A stretch of 64,000 nucleotides of DNA from Tunturiibacter gelidiferens (GTDB lineage Bacteria; Acidobacteriota; Terriglobia; Terriglobales; Acidobacteriaceae): the NCBI RefSeq assembly GCF_014201335.1, contig NZ_JACHEB010000008.1:186001-250000 (forward strand), given 5' to 3'. This document shows positions 57,544 to 63,835 of this stretch, one piece after another; the stretch's first letter is position 1; the number at the start of each line of letters is the position of its first letter. The notes below the pieces were generated by a model. The model did no database searches and was not told where the DNA came from. It saw nothing but the letters and a program-made list of their open reading frames with translations. The translations under genes and the position numbers were made by a program.

Positions 57544-59403
57544 ATGAAGACCGTAGCCGTTGAAACAGCAATCGCAACCCCACCCACCACCAACAAACAC
57601 CTCATCCGCTGGGTCGAAAAGATGGCCGACCTCTGCCAGCCCGACCGCATCCACTGGATCGACGGCTCGCAAGCCGAGTACGAATTCCTCTGCAGCCAGC
57701 TCGTCCAAGCCGGAACCTTCACCAAGCTCAACGAAAAACTCTGGCCCGGCTGCTTCCTCGCCCGCTCCGCACCCAACGACGTCGCCCGCGTCGAAGACCG
57801 CACCTTCATCTGCTCCCTCTCCAAGGACACCGCCGGCCCCACCAACAACTGGGAAGATCCCTTCGTCATGCGCAAAAAACTCAAGGCCCTCTTCAAAGGA
57901 GCCATGCGCGGCCGCACCATGTACGTCCTTCCTTACTCCATGGGCCCCATCGGTTCCCCCATGTCGCAGATCGGCGTCCAGCTCACCGACTCCGCCTACG
58001 CCGTCGTCAACATGCGCATCATGGCCCGCATCGGCGCCCCAGTCTTCGCCGAAATCGACAAGGACGAAAAGCGTGTCGTCCCCTGCATGCACACCGTCGG
58101 CGCGCCCCTCGCCCCCGGCCAGCAGGACGTCCCCTGGCCCTGCAACGACGAAAAATACATCGTCCACTTCCCTGAAACCCGCGAAATCTGGTCATACGGC
58201 AGCGGCTACGGCGGCAACGCGCTCCTCGGCAAAAAATGCTTCGCCCTTCGCATCGCCTCCAACATCGCTCGCGACGAAGGCTGGATGGCCGAGCACATGC
58301 TCATCGTCGGCGTCGAATCCCCCAAGCGCCCCGACGGCACCACCGAAAAAACCTACGTAGCCGCCGCCTTCCCCAGCGCATGCGGCAAAACCAACTTCGC
58401 CATGATGATCCCCCCCGCCGGCTTCGAGGGCTGGAAGGTTTGGACCGTCGGCGACGACATCGCATGGATCAAGCCCGACGCCAGCGGCCAGCTTCGCGCC
58501 ATCAATCCCGAGTACGGCTTCTTCGGCGTAGCCCCCGGCACCAGCTCCAAAACCAACCCCAACGCCATGGCCACCCTCGCCAAAAACACCATCTTCACCA
58601 ACGTCGCCCTCACCCCCGAGGGCGGCGTCTGGTGGGAGGGCATGACCGACACCCCACCCGTCGAACTCACCGACTGGCGCGGCAACCGCTGGACCCCGGC
58701 CATCGCAAAAGAAACCGGCCAACCCGCAGCCCATCCCAACGGCCGCTTCACCGCCCCCGCCGCCCAGTGCCCCACCATCGACCCCGACTGGGAGAACCCC
58801 AACGGCGTCCCCATCTCCGCCTTCATCTTCGGCGGCCGTCGCCCCACCACCATGCCGCTCGTCTATCAGGCCTTCAACTGGTCCGCCGGTGTCTATATCG
58901 GCGCAACCATGGGCTCCGAGACCACCGCAGCAGCCGGCGGCGCCATCGGCAAAGTCCGCCGCGACCCCATGGCCATGCTTCCCTTCTGCGGCTACCACAT
59001 GGGCGACTACTTCCGTCACTGGCTCAAAATGCAGCGCAACCTCTCCGCCACGCCTCGCGTCTTCCACGTCAACTGGTTCCGCAAAGGCCCAGACGGCCAA
59101 TTCCTCTGGCCCGGCTACAGCGAAAACATGCGTGTCCTCAAGTGGATCGTCGACCGTGTCCGCGGCCGAGCCCTCGGCAAAGAAACACCCATCGGCTGGA
59201 CTCCTCACTTCGACGACATCAACTGGAAGGGCTTAGACATTCCCCGCGAACAGATGAAGGCCACCTTCGACACCCTCCAGACCGTCGACCGCGCCCAATG
59301 GAAACAAGAGGTCATGGGCCACGAAGAGCTCTTCCTAGCCCTCCACGACCATCTCCCGCCCGAGATGATCTACGAGCGCGAACTCCTCATCTGCCGCCTC
59401 TAA
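57544..59403 (+). CDS. pckG: Phosphoenolpyruvate carboxykinase (GTP)
   Basis: This 619-aa enzyme makes phosphoenolpyruvate from oxaloacetate with GTP, the first committed step of gluconeogenesis. Key segments are [40 protein letters not shown], the P-loop kinase-1 [15 protein letters not shown], kinase-2 [11 protein letters not shown] and [20 protein letters not shown]. Codons end in C/G almost throughout, so long antisense frames appear by chance. Its last ~45 codons are duplicated 1.38 kb downstream. Confidence 0.96.
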
Positions 59404-59420
59404 CAAATTAACAGCACAGA
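59275..59420 (+). repeat. Direct repeat A: 3' end of pckG
   Basis: This stretch, including the stop codon and ~18 bp after it, recurs at 60658-60802 at roughly 90% identity, with one 3-nt and one 1-nt deletion. A block of over 40 bases within is identical. The repeats bracket the 2-hydroxyacid dehydrogenase gene. Confidence 0.85.
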
Positions 59421-59446
59421 TACGTTGCTCGTCATAAAAGACATGC

Positions 59447-60421
59447 TCAATTCGAAAGAGACACTCGTCGAGGCACAGGATTATTCAGCTGCGAATCGAT
59501 AGGTTGGTTCGCCTTGATATTCGCAAGAACACTTAAGGCGTACTCGACAGTCCCACGCACATTCAAGTCCGTAAGACCAGCCTCGTGTGGTGTGATGAAG
59601 ACTTGAGGCAGAGTCAGGAGAGGATCATCTAAAGGAACTGGCTCGTGCTCCTCAACATCAAGACCAGCACCTCCCAGATGGCCGCTCTTGATGGCATGAC
59701 AAAGCGCCTCTTCGTCAACCAGGGAGCCCCGAGCGATGTTAATCAAGATCGCTCCTTTCTTCATAGAACTCATGACGTCCGCATCGATCATGTGGGTGTT
59801 TTCTTTCGTAGCGCGCACACTCAGCACAACGAAATCCGCATCGGCTACAGCCTTCTTCAGGTCGTCGAGCGGGGACGTCGGAATATACTTTGGTGCGCGC
59901 GTCGGAGAACGATCCACAGCAGTTACGTGCGCACCAAAAGCAAGCAGCCGATGGGCGATCTTAGCGCCAATGCTGCCAATGCCAACGATGCAGACTTTTG
60001 CCCCCATCAGTGAGCCACCGTGTCCAGGCTTCACGATCGACGGATCATGAACCGAAGCAAGTGCGACGGACAAGTGACGTGCAGTGGCGAGCATCAGAAG
60101 GACCGTATATTCCGCGACCGAATCTGCATTCTGGGTAATGTCTCCTGGCGAATTTGAAACCCGAATTCCGAGCTCCGTAGCAGCATCCATATCGACACCT
60201 TCATAGCCGTCGGACAAGACTTGAATGAACATTAGGTTGGGCAATGCCTCCATCAGTGATCGGCTCACAGGCCCGAGTGCGAGCAATACTTCTATATCTG
60301 GAGCAGGCGGACCGCTCCCTGGTTGCCATTGGATTAGGGTGTCCTCGACGAGTCTTTGTTTCAAGCTGTCTAGGATCGCGTTAGGAAATTCGCCTTCAGG
60401 CGAGAAAAATCCTATTTTCAT
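59447..60421 (-). CDS. D-isomer-specific 2-hydroxyacid dehydrogenase
   Basis: This 324-aa NAD(P)-dependent enzyme has a Rossmann motif CIVGIGSIGAKIAHRL, the arginine in ILINIARGSLVDEEAL, the glutamate in GLDVEEHEPVPLDD and the catalytic histidine in VFITPHEAGLTDLN, all conserved. It reduces 2-keto acids or oxidises D-2-hydroxyacids such as glyoxylate/hydroxypyruvate or phosphonate; substrate not predictable. GGAGG lies 7 nt before the ATG. Its codon use is less GC-rich than pckG, and it is bracketed by copies of the pckG 3' end, suggesting acquisition. Confidence 0.88.
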   Translation of the reverse strand: MKIGFFSPEGEFPNAILDSLKQRLVEDTLIQWQPGSGPPAPDIEVLLALGPVSRSLMEALPNLMFIQVLSDGYEGVDMDAATELGIRVSNSPGDITQNADSVAEYTVLLMLATARHLSVALASVHDPSIVKPGHGGSLMGAKVCIVGIGSIGAKIAHRLLAFGAHVTAVDRSPTRAPKYIPTSPLDDLKKAVADADFVVLSVRATKENTHMIDADVMSSMKKGAILINIARGSLVDEEALCHAIKSGHLGGAGLDVEEHEPVPLDDPLLTLPQVFITPHEAGLTDLNVRGTVEYALSVLANIKANQPIDSQLNNPVPRRVSLSN

Positions 60422-60657
60422 TTAGTTACCTCCGGCGGCCGAACGCCGCGCACATGTGGGGTGCCTAGGATGATCTCATTGTTGTTGCGAAACATTGCAA
60501 TCAGTCGATCACTGCTCGTACGTGGGTCAACCAAGAACCGTTCGCGTTTGCATGTCGTTGATTGGAGATTAGAACTTTACGATCGCCCAAGCTATACGTC
60601 TTGCTACACAGAACCTATGTGTTACCACACGAGGTCCATCGACTTCACCCGCGCCAC

Positions 60658-60802
60658 TCTCCAGACGGTGGACCGCGCCCAATGGAAACAAGAGGTCATG
60701 GGCCACGAAGAGCTCTTTCTCGCCCGCCATGACTATCTCCCCGAGATGATCTACAAGCGCGAACTCCTCATCTGCCGCCTCTAACAATTAACGACACAGA
60801 GG
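60658..60802 (+). repeat. Direct repeat B: duplicated pckG 3' end (gene fragment)
   Basis: The sequence encodes the last ~42 residues of PEPCK in frame ([20 protein letters not shown] ... [13 protein letters not shown]) with its stop codon, but has no start or upstream gene body. Changes include ALHD to ARHD, loss of one proline codon, and Glu to Lys in YERE. It is a pckG pseudogene fragment or the donor end of an insertion. Confidence 0.85.
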
Positions 60803-60898
60803 AGGCAAATCCTTTGCGTCAGCAGCGTGAACTTGCCGACCCGACTTTGACGGAGATGCAGTATTCGCGAGGTCAAGGACAGATCCTCATAGAAACGA

Positions 60899-61669
60899 CT
60901 ATCGTTGGTCGTCCATGTCGGCTTTTAGTCGTAGCATCGCTCGTTGATCCATTCGGATAAATCCGCTGCTCGGCGTATCAAGGTCGGCGATTAAGGTCAC
61001 CATAATTGCGATAGTCAACGGCGCAACTAATACCGTCAACCAGAACCGGCGTGCCAGCGTTAAACCACGCGTAAACACCGCGATCGTTGATACAGAAAAG
61101 ATCAGCAGCCAAACAGGGATCGGGATGCGATTCTCAAAACTGGCAATGCGTTTTTCGTAAAGATCAATGACCTGATTGAGCGAGCTAAGGTATGCCGCGG
61201 CGACAGCCGAACGATCGGTTTTTGTGGTTTCAACCAGATCCTTCCAGAGTCGCTCTTGTATTTGCTTTGCACGATGATTGGCCTCTACTGCGCGAGAAGA
61301 GTCCAACCCTGCGTTGTCCGCATCAAGGCGAGCATCAACGTATTGTCTCAGCAACTGTTGCGCTTCGCTGCTGTTAGACGCGGTCAAGGTCGCCGCGCGG
61401 AGGTACGTAGCTCCGATAGCATTGGCCTCGTCTATGAATAACGTCCGACGCTCGGAATATCTGGCAGCAGACAGCGCCAGAGTGAAGCCCACTAGTAAGC
61501 TGACCAGAACGAACAACCCGTCCCGAAGCGCCGCCATTTGGTCTTTTCGGTGTGAATCTTCTTGAATGTGCGAACGATCGGCTGTGTATCGCCCGGCTTC
61601 GATGACAAGTGCCAGGAAGATCGCCGTGATTACGCCTAGTGGCCACGGGTGGTCGAGGAAGAATTGCAT
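60899..61669 (-). CDS. DUF4239 (bestrophin-like) membrane protein
   Basis: This 256-aa protein has four transmembrane helices in two pairs: GVITAIFLALVIEAGRY and LFVLVSLLVGFTLALSA at the N-terminus, VWLLIFSVSTIAVFTRGL and FWLTVLVAPLTIAIMVTLIA near the C-terminus. A cytoplasmic helical region between them contains YSERRTLFIDEANAIGATYL and LRQYVDARLD, typical of DUF4239. Function in bacteria is unknown; ion channel activity is only suggested by the bestrophin resemblance. Confidence 0.8.
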   Translation of the reverse strand: MQFFLDHPWPLGVITAIFLALVIEAGRYTADRSHIQEDSHRKDQMAALRDGLFVLVSLLVGFTLALSAARYSERRTLFIDEANAIGATYLRAATLTASNSSEAQQLLRQYVDARLDADNAGLDSSRAVEANHRAKQIQERLWKDLVETTKTDRSAVAAAYLSSLNQVIDLYEKRIASFENRIPIPVWLLIFSVSTIAVFTRGLTLARRFWLTVLVAPLTIAIMVTLIADLDTPSSGFIRMDQRAMLRLKADMDDQR

Positions 61670-61907: not shown

Positions 61908-62459
61908 ATGACCCGACCAAAGCCTGACCCAAACATCGACCGCTGCAAGGTGTTAGTGGAAAGCTATGCCGTAAACGAGCGAATGAATCAACTCATCCTC
62001 GAACACCTCGACCCAGCAGCATGGCGCGCCAAACTCGCAGACAACAAGGGCCGCACCATCGCCGCCATCTTCACCCACGTCCACAACATCCGCCGCAAGT
62101 GGCTAAGACTCTCCGCCCCGCACCTCAAGCTCCCTGCCACGCTCAACCGCTCCACATCCACGCAAAAGCAAACCCAGACCGCTCTCCTCGAGAGCGCCGC
62201 CCGCTGCTCCGAGATGCTTGAAGGCGCACTATTGGAATCCCCCAACCGCATCGAAACCTTCCACCGCGACGGCTGGGCCAAACCCTGGCCCGCAGGTCCC
62301 GCCATGCTCGCCTACATGATCACCCACGACGCCCACCACCGAGGCCAGGTCAGCATGTTAGCCCACCAGCTCGGATACCCTCTCCCACCTAAAGCCGCCG
62401 AGCAAATCTGGAACTGGGAAAAACTATGGAAGGACTGCGGCTTCACCCACCCCCGCTAA
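61908..62459 (+). CDS. DinB-family protein
   Basis: This 183-aa four-helix-bundle protein has the histidine ligands expected of the DinB superfamily (IFTHVHNIRRKWL and the C-terminal THDAHHRGQVSML), which bind a divalent metal. The family includes thiol-dependent transferases (mycothiol/bacillithiol S-transferases) and proteins induced by DNA damage, so the reaction cannot be fixed. Confidence 0.85.
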   Translation: MTRPKPDPNIDRCKVLVESYAVNERMNQLILEHLDPAAWRAKLADNKGRTIAAIFTHVHNIRRKWLRLSAPHLKLPATLNRSTSTQKQTQTALLESAARCSEMLEGALLESPNRIETFHRDGWAKPWPAGPAMLAYMITHDAHHRGQVSMLAHQLGYPLPPKAAEQIWNWEKLWKDCGFTHPR

Positions 62460-62512
62460 ACAGAGGCCCGGCATATCCGCGTCCCGCATACCGTTGCCTT
62501 TGTTTTTTCTTG

Positions 62513-62532
62513 TTGTCATTCCCGAAGGGAAT
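62513..62532. repeat. Short dispersed palindromic (REP-like) repeat, copy 2
   Basis: TTGTCATTCCCGAAGGGAAT differs from copy 1 at 43705 by paired changes in both hairpin arms, with the same GAA loop. TTGCCTTT again precedes it. Confidence 0.55.
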
Positions 62533-62680
62533 CTTCTTCACCCTACACCGTCAACCTTCTCACCCTAAAATCGTCAGTTAAAAAATCTGTCAAGCCCCCA
62601 AACACCCAAAACCCGCGCCAATCCTGCACAAACGCGTTGCGCATGAGTTTCCCTCAATCCTGTAAACTAGAACCAGAGAA

Positions 62681-62706
62681 GAAGCTCCGGGCGAAACCGG
62701 GGCTTC
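62681..62706. repeat. Stable hairpin in the leader of the HugZ-like gene
   Basis: Arms 62681-62690 and 62697-62706 pair over ten positions (one wobble) around GCGAAA. No T-run follows. It may be a leader structure or the 3' end of a small RNA. Confidence 0.4.
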
Positions 62707-62887
62707 TACGGCTTAACCGCACCGCTAACTCCTTTGGCTGGACGAATTTGGCCGTAACCCGTTTGTTATGACGATTTTGCAGCTATCGGCCTCGCCAAAG
62801 TCATTCATTCTAAATAACTTACACGCGGGCAAGGGGGGGGGTACCCCCAAGGCAGTGGCACCCAGAAACCGGAATCGAGCAAACGAA

Positions 62888-63694
62888 ATGTCGAACCAGC
62901 ACGCAGCACCGTTCAACCCCAACCCGCAGCCACCCATCCCCGAGCCCACCCACGCGGAGCGTGCCCGCACCCTTCTCCATCTCGCCAGTGTCGCAACCCT
63001 CTCCACCGTCTCCCGCAAGCAGCCCGGCTTCCCCTTCGGCTCCCTGATGCCCTATGCTCTCGACAACACCGGCCGCCCCCTGTTCCTCATCAGCACCATG
63101 GCCATGCACACCCAGAACCTCAAAGCGGATCCACGAGCCAGCCTCTTCATCACCCAGCCGGCCGCAGGCGGCGACGTTCTCGGCGCGGCCCGCGTCACCC
63201 TGGTCGGAAACGTCCACCAGATCGCAGACGAAGAAAAACCAGAAGCACGCGAACTCTACCTCAGAGCCCACCCCAACAGCCACTACTGGGTAGACTTCAA
63301 CGATTTCGCCTTCTTCCGCCTCGAACCCGTAGACGTCTACTACGTCGGCGGCTTCGGCGTCATGGGCTGGGTCACTGCCTCCGACTACTCCGCAGCCTCT
63401 CCTGACCCCCTTGCCGGCGCCGCACAGGGCATTTTGGACCACATGAACGCCGACCATAGCGACGCCCTCATCATCCTCACCAGAACCCACGCAAAACTCG
63501 AGGCCGAGTCCGCCACCATGACCTCAGTCGACCGCTTAGGCTTCCACGTTCGCGCCGTAACACCCGCCGGAATCAAGGGTGCCCGCATCGCCTTCCCACG
63601 CGAAGCCACCACCCCCGGAGAGACCCGTTCCGTTCTGGTCGAAATGGTCAAACACGCGCGGAACAACGCTGCACTCCCCTCAAATGCCTATTGA
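62888..63694 (+). CDS. HugZ-like flavin/heme-binding protein (PNPOx-like fold plus DUF2470)
   Basis: The product (268 aa) has a split-barrel FMN-binding domain (VATLSTVSRKQPGFPFGSLM, PLFLISTMAMHTQNLKADPR ASLF, VTLVGNVHQIADEE) and a C-terminal DUF2470 domain (ILDHMNADHSDALIILTRTH, DRLGFHVRAVTPAGIKGARI AFP). This pairing is found in HugZ heme oxygenases and related proteins. Whether it degrades heme or binds flavin is open. ATG 62888 is used because the upstream frame has a low-complexity G-tract and no homology. Confidence 0.85.
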   Translation: MSNQHAAPFNPNPQPPIPEPTHAERARTLLHLASVATLSTVSRKQPGFPFGSLMPYALDNTGRPLFLISTMAMHTQNLKADPRASLFITQPAAGGDVLGAARVTLVGNVHQIADEEKPEARELYLRAHPNSHYWVDFNDFAFFRLEPVDVYYVGGFGVMGWVTASDYSAASPDPLAGAAQGILDHMNADHSDALIILTRTHAKLEAESATMTSVDRLGFHVRAVTPAGIKGARIAFPREATTPGETRSVLVEMVKHARNNAALPSNAY

Positions 63695-63793
63695 CTCCTA
63701 TCTCCTTTGCCTTTATGTTTAATGAGTGGCAAGACTCCCTTCGGGTTGAGTCAGTCATAACGAAGTCCACCCACTTCGTTGCTTTACTGGAAT

Positions 63794-63835
63794 ACCCACG
63801 CAACAGCCCCCACCGCGCTGCGTGGGTTTCCTTTT
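63794..63835 (+). terminator. Intrinsic terminator after the HugZ-like gene
   Basis: Stem ACCCACGCA/TGCGTGGGT (63794-63802 with 63819-63827) with a 16-nt loop is followed by TTCCTTTTT. It lies ~100 bp after the stop codon on the same strand. Confidence 0.7.

Follow-up and report, generated by a model that had tools for sequence, protein, structure and literature searches.

How did the 3' end of pckG come to lie on both sides of a dehydrogenase gene in Tunturiibacter gelidiferens, with pckG itself intact? The locus lies in the window, the whole stretch of 64,000 nucleotides that was analysed from this genome (G000). We suggest that a foreign fragment with the dehydrogenase gene entered at the end of pckG and that the event also duplicated the final ~165 bp of the cell's own gene, and we give this reading of the sequence about an even chance of being right.

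A repeated gene end around a dehydrogenase gene

The repeat and its surroundings comprise the following features, in window coordinates.

57544-59403, plus strand: pckG, GTP-type phosphoenolpyruvate carboxykinase, intact, 619 aa (NCBIfam equivalog NF003253, 959.6 bits against a cut-off of 504)
59262-59420, plus strand: copy 1, the 3' end of the intact pckG with ~17 nt of trailer; the shared sequence ends at CACAGA
59421-60631: inserted segment, with no DNA match in the pckG regions of the relatives compared and no protein match there for its gene
59447-60421, minus strand: gene of the D-2-hydroxyacid dehydrogenase family, 324 aa (Pfam PF02826, 1.6e-50, and PF00389)
60632-60800, plus strand: copy 2, the pckG 3' end and its trailer, apparently decayed to a stump (60646-60800 for the repeat proper)
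60781-60860, plus strand: right flank of copy 2, with a match to what follows the single pckG end in the sister genome G380 (local alignment score 19)

The repeat consists of the last ~140 bp of pckG and ~17 bp of trailer on the same strand. Both copies are 88.7% identical over 159 columns with gaps counted (E 2e-53, far above chance), which confirms the bracketing of the dehydrogenase gene by pckG ends that the initial annotation had described. It needs correction in detail: the dehydrogenase gene is on the minus strand, the shared trailer covers ~17 nt and the insert spans ~59421-60631. The copies are spaced by 1384 nucleotides and, past a 3-nt deletion in copy 2, by 1381, and the repeat holds long identical cores. 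Homology of copy 2 extends left to ~60632 against G380 and G352, not against copy 1, and the join at ~60632 falls within pckG.

The open frame persists through copy 2, in agreement with the in-frame changes noted previously. Of the 12 substitutions that separate copy 2 from copy 1, 6 are private and hit positions without variation among 19 relatives. Two of the three bases deleted in copy 2 are likewise at positions that do not vary in these genomes. Because substitutions and deletions strike such sites, copy 2 looks like a decaying relic without evident function rather than a selected coding end.

The inserted gene

The dehydrogenase gene is convergent with pckG. Its PF02826 NAD-binding domain scores 171.4 bits against a cut-off of 25.1, and among 25 of 34 NCBIfam models no score attains the model's cut-off, so that the gene is assigned at family level. 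The nearest relatives are 42-44% identical and found in four other genomes among 200 of the family (E<=1e-60), and a search of 297 genomes of the phylum (E<=1e-70) retrieved relatives of 44-45% in two other genomes. No close relative was thus found in either group, and the earlier view of the dehydrogenase as the inserted gene is retained. A further scan of genome contigs recovered two loci at 31%. Low G+C content was considered as a sign of foreignness and discarded, as the dehydrogenase gene has a value of 0.527 against 0.635 for pckG, but the window mean is 0.54.

Origin of the two copies

Copy 2 is nearest to copy 1, by a small margin. Among copy 1 and 30 other tails, copy 1 has the fewest differences to copy 2 (12 of 139 sites), G013 follows with 17, and every other tail has 22 or more. 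With nine relatives added, the distances are 12 of 138 sites to copy 1, 15 to G352, 17 to G013, 18 to G380 and 19 to G328. Copy 1 in turn is nearer to G352 (6 of 141), G013 (8) and G380 (9) than to copy 2 (12 of 138). The initial annotation had named a clustering of both copies apart from all other pckG sequences as the mark of a simple local duplication. By distance, copy 2 does side with copy 1, at the narrow margin of 12 against 15 sites, but the tree gives no such grouping: a phylogeny of 21 tails is a comb in which the copies are joined in 0% of 200 bootstrap trees.

In the flanks, none of 300 and none of 1000 shuffles matched G380 as well as the right flank of copy 2 does, and for the part behind the stop codon alone a single shuffle of 1000 was as good. 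The right flank of copy 1 has no match there (369 of 1000 shuffles as good). The ~17-nt trailer is common to copies 1 and 2; G380 has just its first bases in place, and 7-8 nt of the shared trailer are seemingly absent from G380. The trailer match between the copies is weak on its own (5 of 300 shuffles as good). Because its right flank fits the single pckG end of G380 and half of its substitutions are at invariant sites, copy 2 looks like the stump of a pckG end that belongs to this lineage and has stayed in place; the complete end ahead of the insert would then be the second one. The distances with added relatives, which narrow the margin, and the stronger flank data pull in opposite ways and leave our overall assessment unchanged.

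These data bear on the original proposal that one of the two pckG ends derives from a different species and arrived with the dehydrogenase gene. The copies are indeed not the product of a fresh tandem duplication. The divergence of 11% would be consistent with two species, and at 6 of the 12 differing sites the state of copy 2 also occurs in relatives, with G352 (15 of 138) almost as near as copy 1 (12 of 138). The proximity of copy 2 to copy 1 and its G380-like right flank nevertheless argue against an origin in a different species. Furthermore, the expected donor with the same dehydrogenase adjoining pckG did not emerge: relatives of the dehydrogenase reach 42-45% at best, and pckG is absent from the stretches around seven relatives other than the best one (in G030), five of these stretches spanning only ~4 kb. 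We consider a different-species copy improbable.

Stray pckG ends across the family

Second pckG genes and their fragments occur in the family and could provide another source of copy 2. A model of the 47-residue tail matched 33 of 120 family genomes, with two tails only in G000. A query with full pckG matched 42 of 61 genomes, and two genomes had stray 3' ends beyond contig-end artefacts: G000, and G014, where the stray end follows an ORF resembling an acyl-CoA dehydrogenase by eye. G005 and G008 carry full pckG pairs. In a selection of 12 genomes, one (G187) carries the relic of a second pckG, with residues 7-44 fused directly to 581-619 (L078 5538-5765), and another (G226) has a stray 5' end ~300 bp before pckG. 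A wider search of 398 genomes, 252 of which had a match, returned best matches only and so gives no count of stumps.

Given such pairs and relics, a second full pckG, either a tandem or an acquired copy, might once have stood here; the dehydrogenase gene would have taken the place of its deleted body, and copy 2 would be the remnant. No further pckG sequence was detected upstream of copy 2, however, where three pckG bodies scored no better than shuffles, and the right flank fits the end of the original gene better. This origin appears slightly less probable still than a copy from a different species.

Allele-like left edge and apparent exchange of pckG between species

The left edge of the repeat complicates a duplication of the cell's own sequence. 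Copy 1 has TTAGACATT where copy 2 has TCGACTTC, and in addition contains a 12-nt insertion. The insertion and nearby states of copy 1 are shared only, or nearly only, with G013, and copy 2 has the common states without insertion. These differences resemble two alleles and not one duplicated sequence. The two copies may still be alleles of one lineage, such as would result if a close strain had been the source of a one-sided homologous insertion. For a donor of a different species, the states common to copy 1 and G013 are the strongest hint.

pckG appears to have been exchanged between species here. Upstream of pckG, the DNA of the pairs G000/G380 and G013/G328 differs by ~18.5%, but pckG is 93-95% identical among all four genomes. 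G000 and G013 are 81.5% identical upstream but 94.7% in pckG; G013 and G328 are 97.9% identical upstream but 94.9% in pckG. G013 probably received its allele from the lineage of the window, because G328 is without the 12-nt insertion and G013 retains its own clade's pckG end. Site patterns had suggested copy 1 as a mosaic imported from G013, a reading rejected for the same reasons, as they fit the reverse direction. A search for remains of the G013-type spacer in the window returned a single 13-nt chance match.

A one-sided homologous insertion from a close relative would have brought in a complete pckG with its end and the dehydrogenase gene, leaving the resident's last ~165 bp as copy 2. The left join would stem from recombination through pckG and the right join from an illegitimate event within the resident pckG end. 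The two-allele left edge fits this scenario, with copy 2 carrying the common states and copy 1 those shared with G013, as does the exchange of pckG across species (~18.5% divergence upstream, only 5-7% in pckG). Displaced 3' ends at T6SS loci, as treated in parts of PMC5361080, provide a precedent. Donor and resident would both need the same trailer, though, and the donor should therefore have belonged to the same lineage with the dehydrogenase gene already behind pckG. A base shared by both copies of a second duplicated end in this genome (nfo, see below), and absent from six relatives, also speaks against such an insertion. We regard the scenario as rather unlikely, if clearly worth retaining.

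Duplicated ends of other genes

Same-strand repeats within 8 kb were surveyed in 1.664 of the 6.179 Mb of G000 and in 0.4 Mb of G380, and sorted by eye. The G000 sample contains three 3'-end brackets, at pckG, nfo and mutL, the mutL case being older and weaker. The scan for further duplicated core-gene ends suggested previously thus yielded two more in about 1.66 Mb. The G380 sample contained no bracket, but its repeats were dominated by one long repetitive stretch.

L095 2777-3903 (G000 C1:22777-23903): 3' end of nfo (deoxyribonuclease IV), duplicated at 93% around one cupin-like gene
L092 9994-11426 (G000 C8:259994-261426): 3' end of mutL, duplicated over 59 nt at 83% around a pstS gene

At nfo, the repeat comprises the last 127-129 bp of the gene, and the bracketed gene encodes 229 aa that match the cupin family below threshold. 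Both flanks of the nfo case fall on one nfo tail in G328 and G013, where they overlap by 127-128 bp; this single tail is the uninterrupted state. G380 has the nfo end, with no match to the neighbour there, and G024 has ~880 bp behind nfo without a match to the nfo insert. The nfo stump is nearest to the nfo of its own genome (9 of 127 sites, next 13 of 127), and the intact G000 nfo is nearer to G328 (6) and G013 (7) than to its stump (9 of 127).

The mutL case is the weaker one and an old arrangement: G380 has the whole of it at 92% identity and five more of the eight genomes searched have the pstS-mutL pair (G028 and G352 are without it). The stump was found at the loci of at least four of eight relatives, some of these loci being clipped, and no uninterrupted state was seen among the loci compared.

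The other local repeats sampled were mostly short intergenic repeats, tandem repeats or paralogues, as judged by eye from part of the listed pairs. A possible mirror-image case is an OsmC-like gene whose 5' end is found again, at 82% identity, at a distance of 4 kb (L095 9763-9904 and 13889-14029). In G380, C1:109751-134000 (L162-L163) holds ~20 kb of near-identical tandem units spaced by ~483 bp.

Insert ends and the question of an integrative element

Gene-restoring duplicated 3' ends are a known integrase signature, as for e14 at icd, and the two pckG copies could be the attachment sites of a site-specific integrative element. The likeness consists of a duplicated gene end with the gene kept intact, and the long identical cores of the repeat are in agreement. 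Yet the 1.2-kb insert contains no integrase-sized ORF besides the dehydrogenase gene. The latter is the sole ORF above 130 aa, and of the shorter overlapping ORFs, the one at 60461-60784 was run against Pfam and fell into no family. The flank of the stump also looks native, and the three genes affected are unrelated and have different repeats: the pckG, nfo and mutL ends differ, and no common target or repeat was found in the independent insertions. Four comparisons of insert ends between the pckG and nfo cases gave a 13-nt match at best, with 4 of 200 shuffles as high. An integrative element is hence the least credible of the origins considered, and very improbable.

Transposon ends were likewise considered for the pckG and nfo inserts, and judged not convincing against shuffled sequences. 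With respect to terminal inverted repeats, the inverted-end score of the pckG insert lies within shuffles (34 of 300 as high), and the nfo insert has one inverted-end match of 17-18 nt (1 of 300 as high). Neither insert recurred in the 1.264 Mb compared.

A possible course of events

Under the own-end duplication that we prefer, a foreign DNA fragment with the dehydrogenase gene would have entered at the 3' end of pckG, and we infer that the same event duplicated the host's last ~165 bp. The left copy would leave pckG complete, and the right copy would remain as a stump in the original downstream context and decay. The foreign DNA may have been captured by illegitimate recombination, and the duplication made either at a staggered break that was then filled in or by replication that switched template and resumed ~165 bp upstream. 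Insertions within a gene would survive only if the duplicated part reaches the gene end. The surviving cases would thus be found at gene ends without special targeting, because other outcomes would break the gene. The recurrence at pckG, nfo and mutL agrees with the earlier suggestion that gene ends are favoured landing sites, but a preference need not be invoked to explain it.

Several observations speak for an own-end duplication: copy 2 is nearest to copy 1, the trailer is shared, the flank matches G380, changes strike invariant sites, and the nfo case and the older mutL case show the same layout. Against it stand the comb-like tree, the small margin, the closer proximity of copy 1 to G352, G013 and G380, the weak trailer match and the two-allele left edge. 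In addition, no empty site with identical flanks was found, G380 having other genes behind pckG. Judged on sequence comparison, own-end duplication would be the simplest account, and displacement by a close strain would explain the pckG case nearly as well.

The cases have in common a whole host gene, a duplication of the last 60-165 bp, one passenger gene, no integrase seen and no clear common ends. The lineage might have a recurrent process that places single foreign genes immediately after the stop codon of core genes, with the final 60-165 bp of the host gene duplicated and the gene restored at once. We hold such a process to be doubtful, less probable than the one-sided insertion at pckG alone. 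If it exists, stumps would be countable fossils of single-gene acquisition, and both the rate and the targets could be read from genomes.

Relation to known systems

Works by Jackson (2009) and Koskiniemi (2014) reportedly deal with 3' ends displaced at T6SS effector and Rhs loci, and homology-facilitated illegitimate recombination in natural transformation is said to have been treated by de Vries and Wackernagel (2002). For the T6SS effector and Rhs loci, parts of one account describe orphaned 3' ends and tentatively explain them by homology-facilitated illegitimate recombination; the new 3' end differs from the old and is thought to be under selection for toxin and immunity functions (PMC5361080). 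As far as these parts go, the likeness to pckG is that a new gene has come to follow the gene body and has displaced the older 3' end, which is left orphaned further downstream. In contrast, the gene here is a housekeeping enzyme, both ends look to be of the same lineage, and the stump appears to be decaying. Homology-facilitated illegitimate recombination in natural transformation, in the portion of PMC3240628 used here, similarly involves the insertion of foreign DNA aided by one homologous anchor. That anchor comes from the foreign donor; at pckG, copy 2 is nearest to copy 1, if by a small margin, and the trailer is shared, but the left edge has a two-allele pattern.

Small insertions between strains by illegitimate recombination are common and mostly unexplained by known mobile elements, and 10-18% of small variable segments are flanked by direct repeats, mostly below 30 bp, according to sections of PMC2884548. 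The pckG and related cases are likewise small insertions between direct repeats, but differ from what those sections report in that 60-165 bp of a gene end are duplicated. A limited search of open-licence papers retrieved no description of the duplicated-end pattern at housekeeping genes.

By these comparisons, we would class the pckG case as a housekeeping-gene member of the known orphaned-3'-end kind, its interest being the recurrence within one genome. It looks like a repeated but unspectacular route to the gain of single genes. At the pckG locus alone the effect is ordinary, with pckG intact and a stump without visible function. Single-gene gains in bacteria often leave little trace of the route of arrival. 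Where a duplicated, decaying gene end adjoins a gained gene, it records the event and its side, and the extent of decay gives an approximate age. The three stumps found in roughly one quarter of this genome, with mutL as the weak case, suggest scans for stumps as a possible test of how these bacteria acquire single genes.

The variable stretch behind pckG

Beyond copy 2, the window contains three further genes up to the next conserved neighbour of pckG.

60899-61669, minus strand: bestrophin-like membrane protein gene (PF14023, 9.3e-20), in the variable stretch before the next conserved gene
61908-62459, plus strand: DinB-family gene (PF05163), at the same place in G380 (90% DNA identity)
62888-63694, plus strand: CREG/DUF2470 gene (PF13883, PF10615), in many close relatives the next conserved gene beside pckG

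In seven genomes (G013, G024, G031, G208, G275, G328 and G422), pckG is followed by ~280-310 bp and then the CREG/DUF2470 gene. In the window's genome, ~3.5 kb separate pckG from CREG and hold the dehydrogenase gene, copy 2, the bestrophin-like gene, the DinB gene and dispersed repeats. For the bestrophin-like gene, the pckG regions compared in relatives gave neither a DNA nor a protein match. The nearest genome found is G380, with 88.9% identity upstream of pckG, 90% at DinB and 92.2% at CREG. Its single pckG end is followed immediately by two other ORFs, one of which contains a CxxCH motif by eye, and the stretch behind pckG therefore appears to carry different cargo in different species.

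The dispersed repeats before the CREG gene comprise a ~270-bp intergenic repeat at 62582-62860 and a shorter one at 62490-62540. Together they have at least 45 matching places in G000, their own included, with 40 of 97 candidates scored. An intergenic element of ~110 nt at 63691-63835 occurs behind pckG or the CREG gene, and its main matches are 89-99% identical in the relatives having it. It matches no Rfam family at gathering score. The predicted hairpins have 33 pairs on 23 sequences, and five of these pairs are kept with changes on both sides. The element has a terminator-like end and a promoter-like start, promoter-like sites being no commoner here than in shuffles, and is possibly an undescribed small RNA of the group.
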